Shown here: in pieces, positions 17,305-40,337 of the stretch | Numbering within the stretch: position 1 is the stretch's first letter | Layout: every line of letters starts with the position of its first letter | From: Saksenaea vasiformis B4078 | Lineage: Eukaryota > Mucoromycota > Mucoromycetes > Mucorales > Saksenaeaceae | Assembly (NCBI GenBank): GCA_000697055.1 | Contig: JNDT01002275.1 | Coordinates: 62,001 to 126,000, forward strand | Direction of reading: 5' to 3' | Length of the DNA: 64,000 nucleotides | The notes under the pieces: model-generated | Seen by the model: only the letters and a program-made list of their open reading frames with translations | Databases searched by the model: none | Told to the model about the DNA's origin: nothing | Made by a program: the position numbers and the translations under genes

Positions 17305-20300
17305 TTCCATTGCTTTGTCGATGTCTTCCTTTTCATATCCGCAGATGTCTCTAAGTCTGTTTTGCGCATCTTCATTTCCTTGATCTGCCAATTCCTCGTA
17401 TATTTCAATTGCCTTGTCAATGTCTCCTTTTTCATCTCTGTAAATATCTCCAAGCCTGATTAGCGCATCTTCATTTCCTTGACCTGCCGATTCCTCGTAT
17501 ATTTCAATTGCTTTGTCGATGTCTTCCTTCTCCGTCATGTAAATATCTCCAAGACTGATATTAGCCTCTTCATTTCCTTGATCAGCCCATTTCTTGTATA
17601 TTTCAATTGCTTTATCGATGTCTTTCTTTTGATATCTGTAGATGTCTCCAAGTCTGATTTGCGCATCTTCATTTCCTTGATCAGCCCATTTCTGGTATAT
17701 CTCAATTGCTTTGTCGATGTCTTCCTTCTCCTTTATGTAAATATCTCCAAGACTGGTTTGCGCCTTTTCATTTCCTTGATCAGCCCATTTCTTGTATATT
17801 TCAATTGCTTTGTCGATGTCTTTCTTGTCGTATCTGTAAACCTCTCCAAGTTTGATTTGCGCATCTTCATTTCCTTGATCAGTCCATTTTTCGTATATTT
17901 CAATTGCTTTGTCGATGTCTTTCTTGTCGTATCTGTAAACCTCTCCAAGTCTGATTTGCGCCTTTTCATTTCCTTGATCTGCCAATTCCTCGTATATTTC
18001 AATTGCTTTATCGATGTCTTTCTTTTGATATCTGTAGATGTCTCCAAGTCTGATTTGCGCATCTTCATTTCCTTGATCAGCCCATTTCTGGTATATCTCA
18101 ATTGCTTTGTCGATGTCTTCCTTCTCCTTTATGTAAATATCTCCAAGACTGATTTGCGCCTCTTCATTTCCTTGGTCAGCCCATTTCTTGTATATTTCAA
18201 TTGCTTTGTCGATGTCTTTCTTGTCGTATCTGTAAATATCACCCAGTTGGATTTGCGCCTCTTCATTTCCTTGGTCAGCCCATTCCTCGTATATTTCAAT
18301 TACTTTGTCGACGTCTTTCCTTTCATATCTGTAAATGTCTCGAAGTTTGATTTGCGCCTCTTCACTTCCTTGATCAGCCCATTTCTCGTATATTTCAATT
18401 GCTTTGTCGATGTCCCCCTTTTCATATCTGTAAATATCACCCAATCGGATTTGCGCCTCTTTATTCCCTTGGTCAGCCAATTTCTCGTATATCTCAATTG
18501 CTTTGTCGACGTCTTTTCTTTCATCTCTGTAAATATCTCCAAGTGTGATTTGCGCCCATTCATATCCTTGATCAGCGAGTTTTTCGTATATTCCAATTGC
18601 TTTGTCGATGTCACCCTTGTCATTTCTGTAAATATCACCCAGTTTGACTTGCGCATTTTCATTTCCTTGATCAGCCCATTTCTCGTATATTTCAGTTACT
18701 TTGTCGACGTGTTTCTTGTCATATCTGTAAATGTCTCCAAGACTGATTTCCGCCTTTATATTTCCTTGATCAGCCCATTTCTCGTATATTCCAATTGCTT
18801 TGTCGATGTCCCCCTTTTCATATCTATAAACATCACCCAGTAGCTTTTGCGCCTCTTTATTTCCTTGGTCAGCCCATTTCTCGTATTTTTCAATTAATTT
18901 GTCGATGTCTTTCTTGCCATATCTGTAAATATCTCTAAGTCTGATTAGCGCATCTTCATTTCCTCGTTCAGCACATCTCTCGTATGTTTCAATTGCCTTG
19001 TCAATATCCTCTTTTTCGTCTCTGTAAATATCTCCAAGACTGATTTGCGCCTCTTCATTTCCTTGATCAGCCCATTTCTCGTATATCTCAATTGCTTTGT
19101 CGATGTCTCCCTTGTCATATCTGTAAATACCACCCAGTTCGACTTGCGCATTTTCATATCCTTGATCAGCCCATTTCTCGTATATTTCAATTGCTTTGTC
19201 GATGTGTTTCTTGTCATATCTGTAAATGCTTTGAAGTCTGATTTGCGCCCCTTCATTTCCTTGATCAGCCCATTTCTGGTATATCTCAATTGCTTTGTCG
19301 ATGTCTTCCTTCTCCTTTATGTAAATATCTCCAAGACTGGTTTGCGCCTTTTCATTTCCTTGATCAGCCCATTTCTTGTATATTTCAATTGCTTTGTCGA
19401 TGTCTTTCTTGTCGTATCTGTAAACCTCTCCAAGTTTGATTTGCGCATCTTCATTTCCTTGATCAGTCCATTTTTCGTATATTTCAATTGCTTTGTCGAT
19501 GTCTTTCTTGTCGTATCTGTAAACCTCTCCAAGTCTGATTTGCGCCTTTTCATTTCCTTGATCTGCCAATTCCTCGTATATTTCAATTGCTTTATCGATG
19601 TCTTTCTTTTGATATCTGTAGATGTCTCCAAGTCTGATTTGCGCATCTTCATTTCCTTGATCAGCCCATTTCTGGTATATCTCAATTGCTTTGTCGATGT
19701 CTTCCTTCTCCTTTATGTAAATATCTCCAAGACTGGTTTGCGCCTTTTCATTTCCTTGATCAGCCCATTTCTTGTATATTTCAATTGCTTTGTCGATGTC
19801 TTTCTTGTCGTATCTGTAAACCTCTCCAAGTTTGATTTGCGCATCTTCATTTCCTTGATCAGTCCATTTTTCGTATATTTCAATTGCTTTGTCGATGTCT
19901 TTCTTGTCGTATCTGTAAACCTCTCCAAGTCTGATTTGCGCCTTTTCATTTCCTTGATCTGCCAATTCCTCGTATATTTCAATTGCTTTATCGATGTCTT
20001 TCTTTTGATATCTGTAGATGTCTCCAAGTCTGATTTGCGCATCTTCATTTCCTTGATCAGCCCATTTCTCGTATATTTCAATTGCTTTGTCGATGTCTTT
20101 CTTTTGATATCTGTAGATATCTCCAAGTCTGATTTGCGCATCTTCATTTCCTTGATCAGCCCATTTCTGGTATATCTCAATTGCTTTGTCGATGTCATTC
20201 TTTTCATTTCTGTAAGTTTGTCCAAGCTCCACTTGTGCCCGTTCATTTCCTTGATCAGCCCATTTCTCGTATATTTCAATTGCTTTATCGATGTCTTTTT

Positions 20301-22384
20301 TTTGATATCTGTAGATGTCTCCAAGTCTGATTTGCGCCGTTTCATTTCTCTGATTAGCCCATTTCTCGTATATGTCTATTGCTTTGTCGATGTCTCTCTT
20401 TTCATATCTGTAAAGGTCTCCAAGCCTGATTTGCGCGTCTTGCTCTCCTTGATCCGCTGCTTTTTGATACCATTCAATCGCTTTGTCGATGCCATTCTTT
20501 CTTGTTGTGTGTAACAATCCATGACGATAGATGTCTCCAAGACGAGTTTGTGCCAGCCAGCTACCTTTATGCGCTGCTTCCTTGTACGATTTGACCGCTT
20601 TGGCAATGTTCCTCATCGCTGTACTTCTCCCAGCGTAAATGTCCCCAATTCTAATATGTGCCATCCAGCTTCCTTGATCTGCTGCTTTCTCGTACCATTC
20701 AATTGCTTTTTTTTTGTCTTTTTTCACTCCGTCTGCGTCGCGGTACATATCTCCAAGTCTGATTTGTGCATGTGAACTTCCTTGACCTGCTGCTTTTTCG
20801 TACCATTCGATCGCTTTCATGATATCTTGATTGACCCCGTATCCACATATGTACATATCTCCAAGTCTCATCTGCGCCAACCGACTTCCTTTATCCGCTT
20901 CCCTTTGGAACTGTTCAACTACTGCGACATGGTCCCCCCCTACATATACTATCTGGCGGTATTTCTCGCGGACGGCGAGTAAAACCCGTTCGTTGAGGAC
21001 AATGTCGTTGTTGTAATCCTTGTTTGAGCTATGCTTATCTTTGTGTACGCCCCCGTGTATGTCTTCATGTATATCTTCAAGTCTGTCCCGTGAACGTTCG
21101 CTTCTATTATCGACAGATTCTCCTTCGGTGCTGATATTGCTGAGATCGTCATGATCACTAGCATCTCCGTCACTGAAAAGGGAACTATCAGGTTCGTTTT
21201 GCGCATTTCCTGGTCCAGGATCAGTCACTCTGTCGTTGCATTGATCCAAACTTCGCAATCCGCGATTCATATGGTCTTTATCACCTGCGTATCCGGTATC
21301 TTTCTTGTATTCTTTGCGAACTTCAGCCCGTTGACCAAAGTTGACATTAGGGAACGCCTTACTGTAAACCTCCTCCACTCGTAAACGTTCATCGGCGTCA
21401 AGAACGTTATACATTGGGTTCACCTCTTTAAACTGGATAATGGCTGGTTCAGACTTGGTACTTTCTTTCCAATCTTTTATTCCCTCCACGAAAAACAATC
21501 CGGAATCGCCGCCTATTATAAACTTGTCAGACAATTATAAGATAAGCTCTGAATAGTACCTATGATTTTCCAGTATTTGTGACTTTTGATTGCATTTGTA
21601 ACGTTTTCCGCTATAGCATTGCTGGAGCAAACCCCTTTATGTTCAGTTTGCGTTTCACTCTCATCATGAATCCATGTGCCTTCTGTCTTACAAGCAAGCA
21701 GACCGCCTAATTGAGGAAATTGTTATCTCTTGATACATCTGTACGCATCTAGTGTACCAAGTTGGATTTTTGACGGGTAGTAATACCCAAACCGTCCAAA
21801 CACTGTTTGTAGTGCTTCATATTTCTTCTGGTTGGTGTCTTCCTTCAAAGCACCTTGTATAGCTTGCTTGAAGATAGAAGTCGCTTTGAGAAGCTGGGGA
21901 GGTATCTGTACCTAGCACAAACCTTATTAACTGTACTACCACTAAACCACCATTGCATCCATACTTCCCCCCACGAAAAATAAGAAACTGAGTATTCGAT
22001 TGCATTATTTGCAAAGGGCATTTGATTCTCTTTACGTTCGCAGCAACTACGTTCAGCAGCAATGTCGTACACAGATCTCTGACGGAAGCTATCATCACGC
22101 AACAATTTGTCCATGAAGTAATCCGTTTCGATGGTTTTCGTGCATGCATATTCCACGAACGATTCGTCACGAGGATACTCATGAAGAAGTCTTAGCATAT
22201 TATACTTCCCCGGTTTGATTTCCATCGCAGGGTATTCAGCAGTGTATCCGTCAAAATGAAGACCTCGTGTGCATCGGTTGAAAACATCATATGCCAAAAA
22301 CGTACTGAACTTTGGAAAGTGTTAGAGAAGTATAAAGACGAAATGGGGTCGTATCTTTACATTAGGTGGTAGTTTCTTTTCCAT
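17302..22384 (-). CDS. Giant Sel1-like repeat protein (paralogue A)
   Basis: Five exons: 22384-22361, 22309-21965, 21911-21758, 21706-21560, 21512-17302. They sum to 4881 nt (1626 residues) and match the exon phases and lengths of paralogue B exactly for exons 1-4. The first ~200 residues (MEKKLPPN, RCTRGLHFDGYTAEYP, FGYYYPSKI, KSHKYWKIIGGGDSGLFFVEG) form a region I do not recognise. Then comes an acidic Ser/Asp-rich linker, then roughly 36 Sel1-like units. The early units are ~36 residues (Sel1 norm, with GYGV, DGVKKD); the rest are 33-residue units on the pattern DIDKAIEIYEKWADQGNEDA. Sel1 arrays are helical-solenoid scaffolds that bind other proteins; partners are unknown. It ends at a TGA that replaces a conserved Trp codon, so the last ~28 residues are lost unless read through. 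Confidence 0.85.
17320..20450. repeat. 99-bp tandem coding repeat array with higher-order copies
   Basis: About 31 tandem 99-bp units (33 codons) within exon 5 of paralogue A. A segment at about 17595-18088 appears identical line by line to 19575-20068 (offset 1980 bp). A four-unit block repeats again at an offset of 396 bp (around 19335 and 19731). Such identity among otherwise diverged units points to recent unequal crossing-over or gene conversion. Confidence 0.9.
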
Positions 22385-23325: not shown

Positions 23326-25794
23326 TCAGTTAATATTCTGTCCTTGTTCCTGTAGTTCTTTAAGTCTGCTTTCTGCAATACGATATCCGTCGTGAGCAGC
23401 TCTTTGATACCATTCAATTGCCTTGTCGATGTCTTTCTTCACTCCGATTCCATCTCTGTAAATATCTCCAAATCTGAGTTGCGCCCTTTCACTTCCTTGA
23501 TCAGCCCATTTCTCGTATATTTCAATTTCTTTGTCGATGTCCTTTTTTTCCTCCCTGTAAACGTCTCCAAGTCTGAGTTGCACATCTTCATTTCCACGAT
23601 CAGCCCGTTTCTCGTATATCTCAATTGCTTTATCAATGTCTTTCTTTTCCTTGCTGTAAATATCCAAGCCTGAGTTGTGCCCTTTCATTTCCTCGATCAG
23701 CCCATTTCTCGTATATCTCAATTGCTTTGTCGATGTCTTTTCTTTCGTAAACGTCTCCAAGTTCGATTTGCGCCTTTTCATTTCCTTGATCAGCCCATTT
23801 CGCGTAGATTTCAATTGCTTTGTCGATGTCTTTCTTTTCATGTCTGTAAATATCGCCAAGACTGATTTGCGCCTCTTGCTCTCCTTGATCTGCTGCTTTT
23901 TCGTACCATTCGGTTGCTTTGTCTGTCTTCGTTTACTCCATATATCCGTCCATATCTGTAGATCTCTCCCAAGACGGGTTTGTGCAACCCAACTACCTTC
24001 ATGCGCAGCTTTTTCGTACAATTTGATTGCTTTGTCAAGGTCTCTCATCTTTCCAATTTCCCACTTGTAGATATCCCCAAGATTGATTTGCGCCATCCAA
24101 CTTCCTTGATCTGCTGCTTTTTCGCACCATTTAATTGCTTTTTTGACGTCTTTTTTTACTCCGTCTGCATTACGGTACATATCTCCAAGTCTGAGTTGTG
24201 CATCCGAACTTTCTTGATGTGCTGCTTTTTCGTACCATTCGATCGCTTTCATGATATCTTGACTGACCCCGTATCCACATATGTACATATCTCCAGGTCT
24301 CATCTGTGCCAAGCGACTTCCTTTATCCGCTTCTTTCTGGTACCATTCAACTGCTGTGATATTGTCCCCCATTACCGTTATTATCTGGCGGTATTTCTCC
24401 CGAACAGCGAGTAAAGCCCGTTCGCTGACGGTGATATAATTATTGTGATTTTTTTTTGAGCTATCCTTGTCTTCGTGTGTGCCTGCAAGTCCGCTCTGTT
24501 CGCGTTCTCTTCTATGATACATATATTTTCCTTCGGTTTTGGTACTGTTGACATCATCATAATCACTAGCATCTTCATCACTGAATAGCGGACTATCAGG
24601 TTCATTTTGCATATTTTCGGGTCCATGATCAATCGCTCTGTCGCCGTATTCATCCAAACCTTGCAACCCACAATTCGCATCGCCTTTGTTGTGTATGTAC
24701 CCAGTATCTTTTTTATATTCTTTGCGAACTTCAACCCGTTGACCAAAGTTGACATTAGGGAACGCCTTATTGTAAACTTCCTCCACTTGTAAACGTTCAT
24801 CAGCGTCAAGGATGCTATACATTGGCTTCACGTCTTTGAACCGGATAATGGCTGGTTCAGACATGGTAGATTCTTTCCAGTTTTCTGTTCCCTCCACAAA
24901 AAACAACCCGGGGTCGCCACCTTACAAATTAGTCAAACGACCGTAACAGATCGATCATATATATGGTACCTATGACTTTCCAATATTTGTGATTTTTGAT
25001 TGCATTTGCAACGTTTTTCGCTATGTCATGGCTGGAGAAAGTTCCTCTGTGCCCAGTTTCCGTTGCACTCTCGTCGTGAATCCCTGTATCCTCCATCTTA
25101 CAAGCAAGCAGACCACCTTAATTAGGAGATTGTTACTTTATGTTACATCTGTATGTATTTAGAATACCGAGTAGGATTTTTGATGGGTAGTAATATCCAA
25201 ACCGCCCAAACACGGTTTGTAGTGCTTCGTACTTCTTCTGGTTGGTATGTTCATTCAAAGCATCTTGTATAGCTTGCTTGAAGATAGAGGTTGCTTTGAC
25301 AATTTCGGGAGCAAGCTGCACCTAGTGCAAACCTTATTAACTGTACTACCCACAAGCTACCATTGCGTCCTTACTTCTCCCCATGAAAAATACGAAGCTG
25401 AGTATTCAATTGCATTATTTGCGGAGGGTTGCTGGCTCTCTTTACGTGTGCAGCGATTACGCTCAGCAGCAATGTCGTATACAGATCTCTGGCGGGAACT
25501 GTCATCACGCAACGATTTGTCCATGAAGTAATCCGGCTCGATAATTTTCGAATATGTATATTCCACGAACGGTTTATCACGAGGATACTCATGAAGAAGT
25601 CTTAGTATATTATCATTCCCCGGTTCAATTTCCATTGCCGGGTATTCAGCAGTGTACCCATCAAAATGGAGGCCTCGTGTGCATCGATTGAAAATATCAT
25701 ATGCCAAAAACGTACTGAACTTTGGAAAGTGTTAGAGAAGTATAAAGACGAAACGGTAGCATAACTTTACATTAGGCGCTAATTTCTTTTTCAT
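23326..25794 (-). CDS. Sel1-like repeat protein (paralogue B)
   Basis: Five exons: 25794-25771, 25719-25375, 25321-25168, 25116-24970, 24920-23326, with a summed length of 2265 nt (754 residues). Exons 1-4 are the same length as in paralogue A (24, 345, 154, 147 nt). It has the same unrecognised N-terminal region and acidic linker, then about a dozen Sel1 units, ending EWYQRAAHDGYRIAESR with a normal stop. Within the repeats, three indels (extra G at 23968-23970, 2-nt loss near 23924, 2-nt loss near 23664) put about 100 codons into other frames before the frame is restored. The frame stays open but part of the solenoid is scrambled. It may be a functional divergent copy or a decaying one. Confidence 0.78.
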
Positions 25795-35994: not shown

Positions 35995-36021
35995 GGGGCA
36001 TAATGAGAATCCCTAGTAAAA
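35995..36021. repeat. Left terminal inverted repeat, 27 bp
   Basis: Exact reverse complement of 40311-40337. It starts with four G residues at the outer edge, as linear protein-primed replicons often start with simple base runs. Confidence 0.95.
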
Positions 36022-36201
36022 GACTTGCGTTGGAAGTGCGAGCGCGTTCGGTCAAGAGTCGTGTTTTTTTACGATTTCGACGATCACATATCCGACACAG
36101 CGGTCATTCATCAAGATTTTCACTCCGGATTTATTGATTCAGATTCAATCAGGAAAATTGAATCTCACATCAATTGGTTACATGAAAATAAGACTCTCAC
36201 G

Positions 36202-36330
36202 ATGATCGATGAAAAGAGAGTTTGCAAGAATCCAAATTGTCCAATCGAGGAACCTGAGTTCTACGGGAGACATCGTTTATGCAAGAAATGCCACAACAAA
36301 CGTTGTTATGAGCTAAGGAAAAAGAGATAG
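36202..36330 (+). CDS. Small zinc-ribbon protein of the polymerase element
   Basis: First ATG of an open frame that starts right after the left TIR (36007 onward, no earlier ATG). Contains VCKNPNC, EFYGRHRLCKKCHNKRC, a four-Cys zinc-ribbon like those at the N-terminus of HNH-type and viral zinc proteins. After a TAG at 36328-36330 the same frame continues from 36331 through ATG 36337 to TAA at about 36427, reading MLEDAINVRDEMRNELKELR, a coiled-coil helix. The full protein may therefore be zinc-ribbon plus coiled coil, with the amber codon read through or arisen by mutation. It shares the CxnC-FY-CKxC pattern with the protein at 39762-40127. Confidence 0.6.
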   Translation: MIDEKRVCKNPNCPIEEPEFYGRHRLCKKCHNKRCYELRKKR

Positions 36331-36429
36331 TCGCAGATGTTGGAAGACGCTATCAATGTTCGTGATGAAATGAGGAATGAGTTGAAAGAGTTAAGAGGGA
36401 TGTTGGAGGAGATGAATTCGCAACTATAA
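36331..36429 (+). other. In-frame coiled-coil extension after an amber codon
   Basis: Same frame as the zinc-ribbon gene, separated only by one TAG. It encodes about 32 residues of heptad-like Leu/Met/Glu helix ending in TAA. It could be its own tiny gene from ATG 36337. Confidence 0.45.
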
Positions 36430-36559
36430 GGCGATGACTATTTAACGAGTATTCTTTTAAAATCGGTTCAGTCCCTTACATGCTAGACTCGTAACAAAAA
36501 TGAATAAACTGATTGTGAGTCACTGATCAGATTAGTCAGAACCTAAAGGAGAAGATATC

Positions 36560-39500
36560 ATGTACGCCGATCTTGATTCCATCGTGAAGCTTTTCATCGA
36601 CTTCGACGAGCCGACATTTAACGACTGTCCGAACGAAGTTCAAGACTTCCTCATTGCTGATGCCTGGGAGAAATTTAACAAGATTCGTCGATTCATTCCT
36701 GTATCTCCGGATGCGTACGAGCGATAGCCTGACACGGTGAAGGTTTACTTGGTCAGAAAAGCTATCGAGTTGTCGAACACTCACCAGCTTCGTACCGAGG
36801 ACAACGTACCCGAGACGAGCAATGATGCTCAAAGAAGGACGAGAATCGAGGAAATAACGGACGAAGATGATGTTATCATCGATGTTACCCCGGATCAGGT
36901 CGAGGAAGTGTATCACTTCGATCATGAACAGGTCGATGTGTCATTCGATCGTTGGCGCGATACAACGAAACAAAAAGTGAGAAGATTCAAAGGAGATGAT
37001 GGCAGAATATACAGCTTCAACAATGTCACCGTTTCATCTGAAAGAACCGTTGATGGGGATGAAGTCGTGTTATGTCCGTCGACTATAAGATCGATCGTGG
37101 CGAAGCTCGATGAGATGGCGCAAACCAGTTGTACAAGTCTTGATCGTGCGTATATGTATACGATAGCGATGGATGGTAATCGTTTTATCAACGCGACGCC
37201 TTCCCAGATGATATTTGAGTTGGCATCGATTATGGAGGAATATGAAGAGTTCAGCGTATTCGTATCGGCTTTGTCCGTCCATATCACTCGAAAAGACTCA
37301 CATCATTCGGTCTCAGGTCACGTTCGTCCGTCAGCTGGTGAAGGCGTGTCATTGGAATTAGGTGATGGGTACTGGGCGTTTGATTATCTACCTACGAAGA
37401 GTAGATGCGTCGTAAATGTGTACTCAGCATGGTTATATTACAAGCAAGGAAGGCTTAATGACTGGATGGAGATGGCGTTCGCAGAAAGATATAGCCAACA
37501 ACAGAAGATACTCTTCGCAGTGAAAACGAAACCACCCAATTCACCCATCGACATGACACGCTTTACTCCCCACGAGTATTTAATCGTTTGCGACCGTACC
37601 GATCTTGACGAACTGGACCCTGATGTCACCGTTCATAATTGCATCTACTTCGTAACGGCGGACCATGCACGACTAGTAATACACGAGAACCACGTATCGG
37701 ACCAGGCAATGAAAACGATAATCAAAACGTCCACCAAGCCGCACATGAATAGAATATCTCCAACCAAACCGAAAGAGCCGGTCACAAAGCTAATCGTTGC
37801 GGATTTCGAATCGTTCCGGGAGGTGGACCCGAACGACGCTTCAACGCATAAACACATCCCTATCATGATAGGTGAGTTGTGCGAAGAACATTTCTTCCAA
37901 GCCAAAGGCGAAAATTGCTCCGAACAGTTCATCGAACATATTAGAGACTTCCATACGAACGATGTGATTTGGTTCCACAACGGGTCTAATTACGACCACC
38001 ACATTTTATTCGAAGCAGCCTTGAAGCGTTGCGATCATACTAGGGGTAACCCGATTGAGTTGTTAGATTTGAATGGACGGTGGTTGAGTGTAAAAGTCTG
38101 GTTCGATTCGGAGAATTACGTCATATTTCGGGATAGCTGCTCGTTAATACCCGGTAGCTTGGATAGGATCGCCCGAGATATGGGGTTCGGCGGCAAGTTG
38201 CCGAATATTGACGTAATGAACGTGTCAAAGGAGGCGTGGATGAATGACGAGGTGATGGCGGAATACAACCGGCAAGATTGCGAAATCTTGTTTAAGGTGT
38301 TAGAGGAGTACCGAAGCACGGCGTTCGAACAGTTTGCGACCGATCCGTTGGCGCATGTGTCAGCTTCATCGTATTCTAAACAAGTGTTTCTATCGAAGTA
38401 CTACAAGCCTGAAAGATGGCCGATATACGTATTAACTGAGACATGCCACAAATTTATTGAGAAGGGATACATGGGAGGACGGAATGAAGCATTCTTCCGC
38501 GGCCTGGTGAAGAAACGTATGAACATCTATGACTTCACCTCGGAATACCCGTGGGCGGGTACTATGTCAATCCCTTTCGGTAAGTTCGAGTTCCTTAACG
38601 ATTTGGAACGGGTCGCGGACCCTGGAAAATGGCTGGAAACTCACCACGGGTTTTACGATATCCTCGTTGAATCGACGCCCGACGATATTATCCCGTATTT
38701 GGGAATACAACATGAGTCCCGCTACATTTTCCCCAAGATGACGAACGTCGAGAATTGTGCAGTGTACTCGTTGAGTATAATTCGAATGATCGACTTGGGA
38801 TACAAGGTGAAACTATTACGTGGATATCGATGCGAGGTCGATTATGTGACGGCGGAGATATTCAAGGACCTCTTTAATGTAAAGAAGGAAGCAAAGGAGA
38901 AAGGTGAGAAAGGGAAGGAGTACGCGGGTAAAATCACCGTAAACGCCTTTTACGGAACCCCCACGTTCCGTAAATATGATCGACAAGTGATATCGTGCTA
39001 TGGGAAGAAGTGCGAGCCAAGATTGATCGCGGGTGAACTCCTCGGTCATTGCACGTACACGCGCACAGGTAATACGTTCCTGGCGTACGAAACTAAAATG
39101 TACTGCTAAATAACGTCAACGTAGCCATCGCATCGGCAATCACGTCGTATGCCCGTGACCTGATGTATGACATGTTGCAGGCTATTCGTTCGTTGGGCTA
39201 TAACGTGTATTTTTGTGATACGGATAGTGTGGTGACAGATTGCAGGATCGAGGATCACCCGGAGCTTGCCGACCATTTCATGGGGCCTGGACGTGGGAGA
39301 AACCTAGGCGAGTTGAAGCACGAGAATGAAATTGATGAAGCGGTGTTCGTTGGGTGTAAGACGTATGGGTACCGGACGATAGGAGGCAAATACGTCGCTA
39401 AATCGAAAGGAACGAGACTAAAGGATGTCAATCACGACGTAGTAAGAGCGGATGGAGAGAGCGATGCCGAGTATGAAGAACGTATTAAAGACCGGCGAAA

Positions 39501-39711
39501 CGAAATTATGTACCAGAAGCTGGTACGATTGATTGACGATCCACAAGTGTTTAGTTCGTCTCAAATAAACACCAGCCGACAACGCAAGATGGAAGGGGAT
39601 TTGGATGTAACCGACAAAGTGATGGAAAAGACGTTGACCGGAGTGTACACAAAAGGTAAAGTAAGAGAGAGCGGAGAAATTACCCCGTGGCACCTAGTGT
39701 GCCGTAAATGA
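36560..39711 (+). CDS. Family B (protein-primed type) DNA polymerase
   Basis: Replicative DNA polymerase of the element. From ATG 36560 there are 55 codons (MYADLDSIVKLF...), one in-frame TAG at 36725-36727, then an open frame to 39106; a second piece runs to 39711. A 56-nt GT-AG intron (39069-39124) would join them in frame; otherwise there is a -1 frameshift. The 3'-5' exonuclease motifs are intact: ADFESF, HNGSNYDHHI, YNRQDCEIL. The polymerase motifs are also intact: A = YDFTSEYPWAGTM, B = KITVNAFYGT, C = FCDTDSVVTD. The distance from A to B and the NVAIASAIT-like block suit the protein-primed subgroup. About 1030 residues in total. The N-terminal ~340 residues before the exonuclease are unassigned and could hold a terminal-protein function, as in fungal linear plasmids. 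Confidence 0.88.
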
Positions 39712-39761
39712 TACCAAGAAATGAAACGATACCGACGATTGGTTTTTTAAAAAGCTTAGGT

Positions 39762-40127
39762 CTAACGACGACTGGAACCGAATAACATGCTTAAGTAACC
39801 AGCACCGATTAGCGGGAAGTTCGCGGTAAGAACGCCAATGGCCATCATTCCCAATCCCGCAAACGCCGTGGGCAAGTGCTGACGTAATTCGTGCCTACCT
39901 CGTTCGTCCGAGCTCGGTTCGACGGAAACGGTCGTCAAGTCCTCATCCGTCAATTGTCTTCTCGATGTACTTTGAGAATGCGTCTGTGTTGACATTGAAA
40001 CGGAAGCCGAAGGTGAAGGTGAAGGTGACCTCCGCCTCTCGAGATAGCAATTCTTGCACATCTTCCTGTTAGCGTAGAAATCATGTAATTCCTTCTCAAT
40101 CTTGCATACTCGACATATTTTAGTCAT
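39762..40127 (-). CDS. Zinc-ribbon plus membrane-segment protein of the polymerase element
   Basis: 121 residues with a clean ATG at 40127. Residues 1-32 form a four-Cys zinc-ribbon CRVCKIEKELHDFYANRKMC-KNC, the same design as the protein at the other end of the element. A Ser/Pro repeat (SPSPSPSASVS) and a polar, acidic linker follow. Near the C-terminus is a Gly/Ala-rich hydrophobic segment (FAGLGMMAIGVLTANFPLIG) long enough to span a membrane, and then SSRR. Transcribed toward the polymerase gene, with about 50 bp between their stops. Function unknown; zinc-binding together with membrane attachment is seen, a replication or membrane-docking role is a guess. Confidence 0.72.
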   Translation of the reverse strand: MTKICRVCKIEKELHDFYANRKMCKNCYLERRRSPSPSPSASVSMSTQTHSQSTSRRQLTDEDLTTVSVEPSSDERGRHELRQHLPTAFAGLGMMAIGVLTANFPLIGAGYLSMLFGSSRR

Positions 40128-40310
40128 TATTTCTTTTGAGTCTCAGTGAATTATTCGGTCGGTTCAGATTGAAATTCATTTTCTAACGCAGGTTCATCCA
40201 TAGAAATCGTTAAAATTAACGCAAGAAGGCCTCTGTGTCGGATCAATTTTGGCGAACCCCGAAAAAAACGCGATGAATAAAGGGAAGTTGACTCGTAGTT
40301 AGTTAATTGT

Positions 40311-40337
40311 TTTTACTAGGGATTCTCATTATGCCCC
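40311..40337. repeat. Right terminal inverted repeat, 27 bp
   Basis: Exact reverse complement of the left TIR at 35995-36021, ending in four C residues. Confidence 0.95.

Follow-up and report, generated by a model that had tools for sequence, protein, structure and literature searches.

A compact three-gene element with terminal inverted repeats and a protein-primed-type DNA polymerase in the genome of Saksenaea vasiformis

We analyzed a 64,000-nucleotide stretch of the genome of the fungus Saksenaea vasiformis B4078 (GenBank assembly GCA_000697055.1, contig JNDT01002275.1, positions 62,001 to 126,000; hereafter the window), which holds a 4.3-kb element bounded by inverted repeats and encoding a family B DNA polymerase (PolB) and two zinc-ribbon proteins, A and C. 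The analysis suggests, with a probability that we put at roughly two in three, that this is a minimal linear replicon with protein-primed replication, whose copies insert into chromosomes through end joining, with no integrase. The reading draws on the repeats, the gene set, the copy number, purifying selection, the match between the repeats within each copy, the absence of a target duplication, a phi29-like structural model, the standard genetic code and a host-like base composition. The original prediction, made from the window sequence, had proposed either a new compact element or an integrated linear plasmid; the two lie close together, and a chromosome-captured linear replicon is favoured here.

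If correct, the element would be close to the smallest eukaryotic protein-primed replicon generally known, having shed all the genes that define its larger relatives. It would show the minimum needs of such an element, provide a eukaryotic nuclear counterpart of phi29-type replication and offer a testable case of integrase-free integration. How Polintons, adenoviruses and linear plasmids originated hinges on which gene set came first.

Organization, copies and decay of the element

The predicted exact 27-bp repeats stand up well to scrutiny. Their arms (27 nt each, 100% complementary, separated by 4,289 nt) form the longest inverted repeat with a spacing of 1 kb or more in a 16-kb region around the element, where 30 mononucleotide shuffles never exceeded 17 bp, and at up to three mismatches the repeat has two matches in the whole window, with none expected from 100 shuffles. 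The features of this copy are collected in Table 1.

Table 1. Features of the element in the window (window coordinates)
Feature	Position	Strand	Remarks
Left terminal inverted repeat (gene A side)	35995-36021	+	5'-GGGGCATAATGAGAATCCCTAGTAAAA
Gene A, zinc-ribbon protein with helical tail	36205-36426 (homology span)	+	Match to C600 A
Family B DNA polymerase	36560-39711	+	PF03175; open pieces 36737-39109 and 39163-39711
Gene C, zinc ribbon, 121 aa, open	39762-40127	-	Convergent to polymerase
Right terminal inverted repeat (gene C side)	40311-40337	-	Exact reverse complement of left repeat

The genome searched is a 38.7-Mb assembly of 666 contigs, the window being part of contig C558. At up to three mismatches, the repeat has five matches in it (two in the window, two on C525 and one on C152), versus none in a reversed control; the C525 repeats differ from the window 27 bp by two to three mismatches at both ends, and the half copy on C152 carries the identical 27 bp at one end. 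Polymerase matches number at least 23, on 16 of the 666 contigs, that of the window included. Three copies are complete at both ends: the window copy, a 4,806-bp copy on C525 whose polymerase is broken, and a 4,323-bp copy on C600, where identical 139-bp repeats enclose A (85 aa), the polymerase (1,052 aa) and C (119-131 aa), all open. Gene order (A, polymerase, convergent C) is the same in all three. C152 retains the right half of one copy. On C161, in a diverged lineage, A again precedes the polymerase, and on C623 the polymerase precedes C; the remaining polymerase loci are fragments. Full copies with matching ends, which the original prediction had suggested looking for, are present in the same genome. 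The element is multi-copy in this genome, where it was formerly active and perhaps still is.

The window polymerase matches PF03175 at 1.6e-32. It had been credited with all the exonuclease and polymerase motifs, and these are present, Exo I, II and III with motifs A and B in the first open piece and motif C (CDTDS) in the second; they are, however, split over two frames, and motif B is divergent (YGTPTF, versus YGTWGF in the open C600 copy). The coding sequence is interrupted by an in-frame TAG at 36725-36727 and by a frame change at about 39080-39110, gene A by a TAG at 36328-36330, and the sole open gene is C. The predicted self-replication is not supported for this copy, in which two of three genes are broken: it is dead, and fairly young. 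Its polymerase pieces are 82% and 86% identical to the C600 protein, gene A is 66% identical across residues 3-79 of the 85-aa C600 A (with one TAG within), and gene C is 56% identical to its C600 counterpart.

Two other explanations of the interruptions were rejected. GT...TAG signals lie near 39100, but an intron there, instead of a frame change, is dismissed because the open C600 copy continues uninterrupted over the same stretch. Recoding of TAG, the stop at both in-frame positions in the window, is countered by the open C600 genes, which have no internal stop, and by other copies, which also have TGA and TAA.

Both zinc-ribbon genes of the original prediction were recovered as A and C. 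Protein C consists of a zinc ribbon, a Ser/Pro/Arg-rich middle and a hydrophobic C-terminal stretch. In the C600 polymerase, an N-terminal part of about 400 residues precedes the exonuclease and polymerase.

Several further loci carry pieces of the element. On C495 (L038, 4359-5038), A and C are arranged head to head with about 20 bp between them and no polymerase; next to them lie retrotransposon-like frames and a polymerase fragment of another lineage, 43% identical to that of C600. Open zinc-ribbon frames resembling A (148 aa; L064, 454-897, on C152) and C (191 aa; L066, 689-1261, on C300) have no polymerase match within the 5 kb and 3 kb of sequence examined, and are perhaps solitary or host-adopted. 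The diverged copy on C161 (L063, 706-2075 and 3358-3555) comprises a degraded A followed by a polymerase start, and is split by repeats of about 200 bp in alternating orientation (93-96% identity).

Divergence, ends and chromosomal entry

Between the window and C600 polymerases, the proportion of synonymous differences (pS) is 0.69 and that of nonsynonymous differences (pN) 0.11, with nonsynonymous-to-synonymous rate ratios (dN/dS) of 0.06 (785 codons) and 0.04 (182 codons). Relative to C152, the window polymerase has a dS of 0.30 and a dN of 0.03 (181 codons); in comparisons with C525, dS has reached saturation (pS 0.80-0.90), with pN at 0.12-0.21. Gene C is under weaker constraint (0.24-0.34). 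Judged by these codon comparisons, the polymerases have diverged under strong purifying selection, and the low ratios mean that the lineages diverged while functional, the chromosomal copies decaying later.

The repeats agree within a copy and vary from copy to copy. Positions 24-25 read AA at both window ends and TC at both C525 ends; the repeat is 27 bp in the window copy and, in C525, 26 bp followed by one mismatched terminal base. The sequence just inside them is side-specific, yet conserved between the window and C525. The C600 ends share only their first 12 bp (GGGGCATAATGA) with those of the window and C525, and are identical to each other over 139 bp. Such matching could be explained by end-to-end copying, as expected of protein-primed strand displacement; gene conversion could also account for it.

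In exact form, the 12-bp motif has 13 genomic matches, six of them at known element ends; with one mismatch, it has 85, versus 53 in the reversed control. As element ends, the other seven exact sites were rejected: six share one flank, that of an unrelated repeat, and one is isolated. The unrelated repeat, which contains GGGGCATAATGA within identical flanks, occupies six of the seven places read (L052-L055, L057 and L058).

At the insertion sites, none of the three complete copies has a direct repeat of at least 4 bp adjoining its ends, even with three bases of slack. Joined 400+400-bp flanks of the three copies revealed no empty site in their own genome: those of the window and C600 matched only themselves, and those of C525 matched 40 places, 38 of which cover the outermost 150 bp only, away from the junction. 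The outer 150 bp of the C525 left flank (L006, C525:227666-228065) are repetitive and recur at 38 or more other places with 92-96% identity.

These ends also bear on another explanation, according to which the element is a chromosomal transposon with its own unrecognised route, using A or C as an end-binding recombinase, and was never a free plasmid. It would account for exact ends and for copies on many contigs, and protein C weakly matches phage endonuclease VII and HNH families in their zinc part (best match 1.6e-5, residues 1-41 of 121). However, C retains the nuclease zinc ribbon only and has a hydrophobic end, neither A nor C matches a Pfam or NCBIfam family above its cut-off, and target duplications are absent from all three copies; we regard this reading as quite unlikely. 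As for a cut-and-paste DNA transposon with inverted repeats, no transposase was matched in Pfam, PHROG or NCBIfam among the proteins of the window and C600 copies (part of these searches covering window proteins only). In the favoured replicon reading, linear copies would enter by joining chromosome breaks through end joining, without an integrase, and would then decay.

The polymerase and its proposed mode of replication

Searched outside this genome, the C600 polymerase has 11 relatives at E ≤0.001, the best three at 41%, 33% and 26% identity, and a profile search added one more. The best of them is found on contigs no longer than 4,380 bp, a size that suggests that it may be a whole element. 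Scans of five viral contig sets yielded three distant polymerase loci in one set (25%, 22% and 27%) and none in the other four, two genome contig sets gave no polymerase match, and matches in phages (8 records) and plasmids (4 records) are all below 35% identity. A 21-sequence polymerase tree has no fungal plasmid polymerase among its members. Against the PDB, a sequence search with P0001 alone found no match, and a profile search reached archaeal family B polymerases at 1e-8. Compared by structure, the polymerase model matches the phi29 polymerase chain; among viral proteins, its top matches include polymerases of bidnavirus-like, adintovirus and adenovirus origin, most of whose length is covered, with TM-scores of about 0.5 or less and a high root-mean-square deviation.

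For active members, we envisage a linear DNA that carries a protein at both 5' ends; the N-terminal 400 residues of the polymerase perhaps serve as its own terminal protein. Synthesis would start opposite the repeated terminal bases (5'-GGGG) and proceed by strand displacement, which would let one end be rewritten from the other. The element ends start GGGG(C), which is comparable to the GGGGATACGT that starts the ends of PRD1, where initiation takes place at the fourth base. Repeated terminal bases accompany sliding-back initiation in protein-primed systems, as described in PMC3480470. The zinc-ribbon proteins A and C, whose genes adjoin the repeats, would attach to the ends, in the case of C perhaps at a membrane, and transcription would be left to the host machinery.

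Several points weigh against this scheme. The element is known here from genome sequence alone, from which we infer the protein-capped extrachromosomal form. The phi29 matches of the model indicate a fold and make no statement on priming; moreover, the alignment behind the usable model included eight phage-like or prokaryotic polymerases (P0005-P0012), and an earlier model from six sequences without them reached a pLDDT of 46.8, too poor for use. No terminal protein was matched by the N-terminal 400 residues, a part that was not searched by fold on its own, and a chimeric query of A and C found no match at E ≤1 outside this genome. Finally, no empty site having been found, the missing duplication is the single observation behind the insertion route.

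Comparison with known protein-primed elements and genomic setting

By its polymerase, which falls in the protein-primed branch of PolB, and by the terminal inverted repeats of three copies, the element fits the broad protein-primed family B polymerase kind. Membership of any named family is not established: the tested defining features of Polintons, invertrons and yeast plasmids were not found, and we therefore file it under the broad kind.

The nearest comparison is with invertrons, the linear plasmids of fungal mitochondria, and the element might be an ordinary invertron, or a derived lineage, copied into the nucleus. Invertrons likewise have terminal inverted repeats, a polymerase of the protein-primed type whose N-terminal part is long, and neither capsid nor integrase; according to the title of a cited work, the terminal protein of one such plasmid lies in the N-terminus of its polymerase gene. 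Copies in fungal nuclear genomes are reported in PMC10583447, which gives 95 complete repeat-bearing elements from plants and fungi and counts Mucoromycota among the hosts; most of these elements encode both a polymerase and an RNA polymerase. The element differs in its two zinc-ribbon genes, its size (4.3-4.8 kb, versus the 5-15 kb within which PMC9925561 places all known invertron plasmids) and its lack of an RNA polymerase, which is absent from all three complete copies; genome-wide, PF00940 (RNA_pol) occurs at one unlinked locus, on C535, which is probably the host mitochondrial RNA polymerase. Its code and composition differ as well. The open C600 polymerase has 15 TGG codons and TGA only as its terminal stop, with no internal TGA to suggest the mould mitochondrial code, and the C600 element has a G+C content of 45.6%, versus 43.0% in its flanks. 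Standard code and host-like composition fit cytoplasmic translation of nuclear transcripts, not a mitochondrial or A+T-rich cytoplasmic plasmid. We consider an invertron origin unlikely. The window's element may be either a sister of those in PMC10583447 or one of them that lacks an RNA polymerase. No three-gene nuclear element of this kind was found in the literature; the supplementary list of PMC10583447, outside that search, may contain one. Parts of PMC12721341, PMC10328495 and PMC2746187 give context only.

Yeast cytoplasmic linear plasmids (virus-like elements, VLEs) and their nuclear remnants (NUPAVs) share inverted repeats, chromosomal remnants and the linear form proposed here. In the description of PMC8472843, VLEs have a polymerase with its terminal protein and leave remnants in chromosomes, are 73-76% A+T, and rely on an RNA polymerase, a helicase and a capping enzyme of their own. 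The element, by contrast, is about 45% G+C and has three genes, none for those three enzymes. It differs from phi29 and PRD1 in its eukaryotic host, in lacking packaging or virion genes and, for phi29, in a polymerase identity of about 16-18%.

Polintons (Mavericks) and Polinton-like viruses also carry a protein-primed type polymerase between inverted repeats and integrate in the nucleus, which would allow a stripped descendant that has lost capsid, integrase, ATPase and protease. The bidnavirus-like, adintovirus and adenovirus polymerases among the structural matches would agree with such an ancestry. However, the element shows no target duplication and is about a quarter of the usual Polinton size, 15-20 kb. 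An RVE integrase is not found in the C600 copy, which is filled by A, polymerase and C (its other open reading frames of at least 70 aa lie on the opposite strand, overlying these genes), and the three complete copies leave no room for capsid, protease or packaging ATPase. The packaging ATPase PF04665 fails its cut-off genome-wide (best E 0.07); capsid and protease were not searched genome-wide. The absence from the element of integrase, capsid, protease and packaging ATPase, as originally predicted, is upheld, and a Polinton origin appears highly improbable.

These comparisons raise the possibility, put forward tentatively and with the odds against it, of a distinct class of nuclear mini-invertrons. 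Its members would be protein-capped linear molecules transcribed by the host, with three genes (a polymerase with built-in primer protein and two end-binding zinc-ribbon proteins) and no RNA polymerase, capsid or integrase; they would replicate in the nucleus and seed chromosomes by end joining.

In the window, the tested neighbours of the element are host genes. Eight of the ten open reading frames searched have Pfam matches, with a GH5 glycosidase nearby and LysM, YL1, PAP1-type bZIP, HMG-CoA reductase, Sel1-repeat and phenol hydroxylase proteins farther away; no capsid, integrase or ATPase is among the flanking genes in this Pfam search. Two long open frames lie on the minus strand, at 17305-21534 and 23329-24921; the second encodes the Sel1-repeat protein, and the first, whose start resembles that of the second, has a strongly strand-asymmetric base composition. 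Elsewhere, on C170 (L030, 2762-4072, minus strand), a 437-aa frame beside a polymerase of 31% identity presumably resembles a DDE-type transposase.

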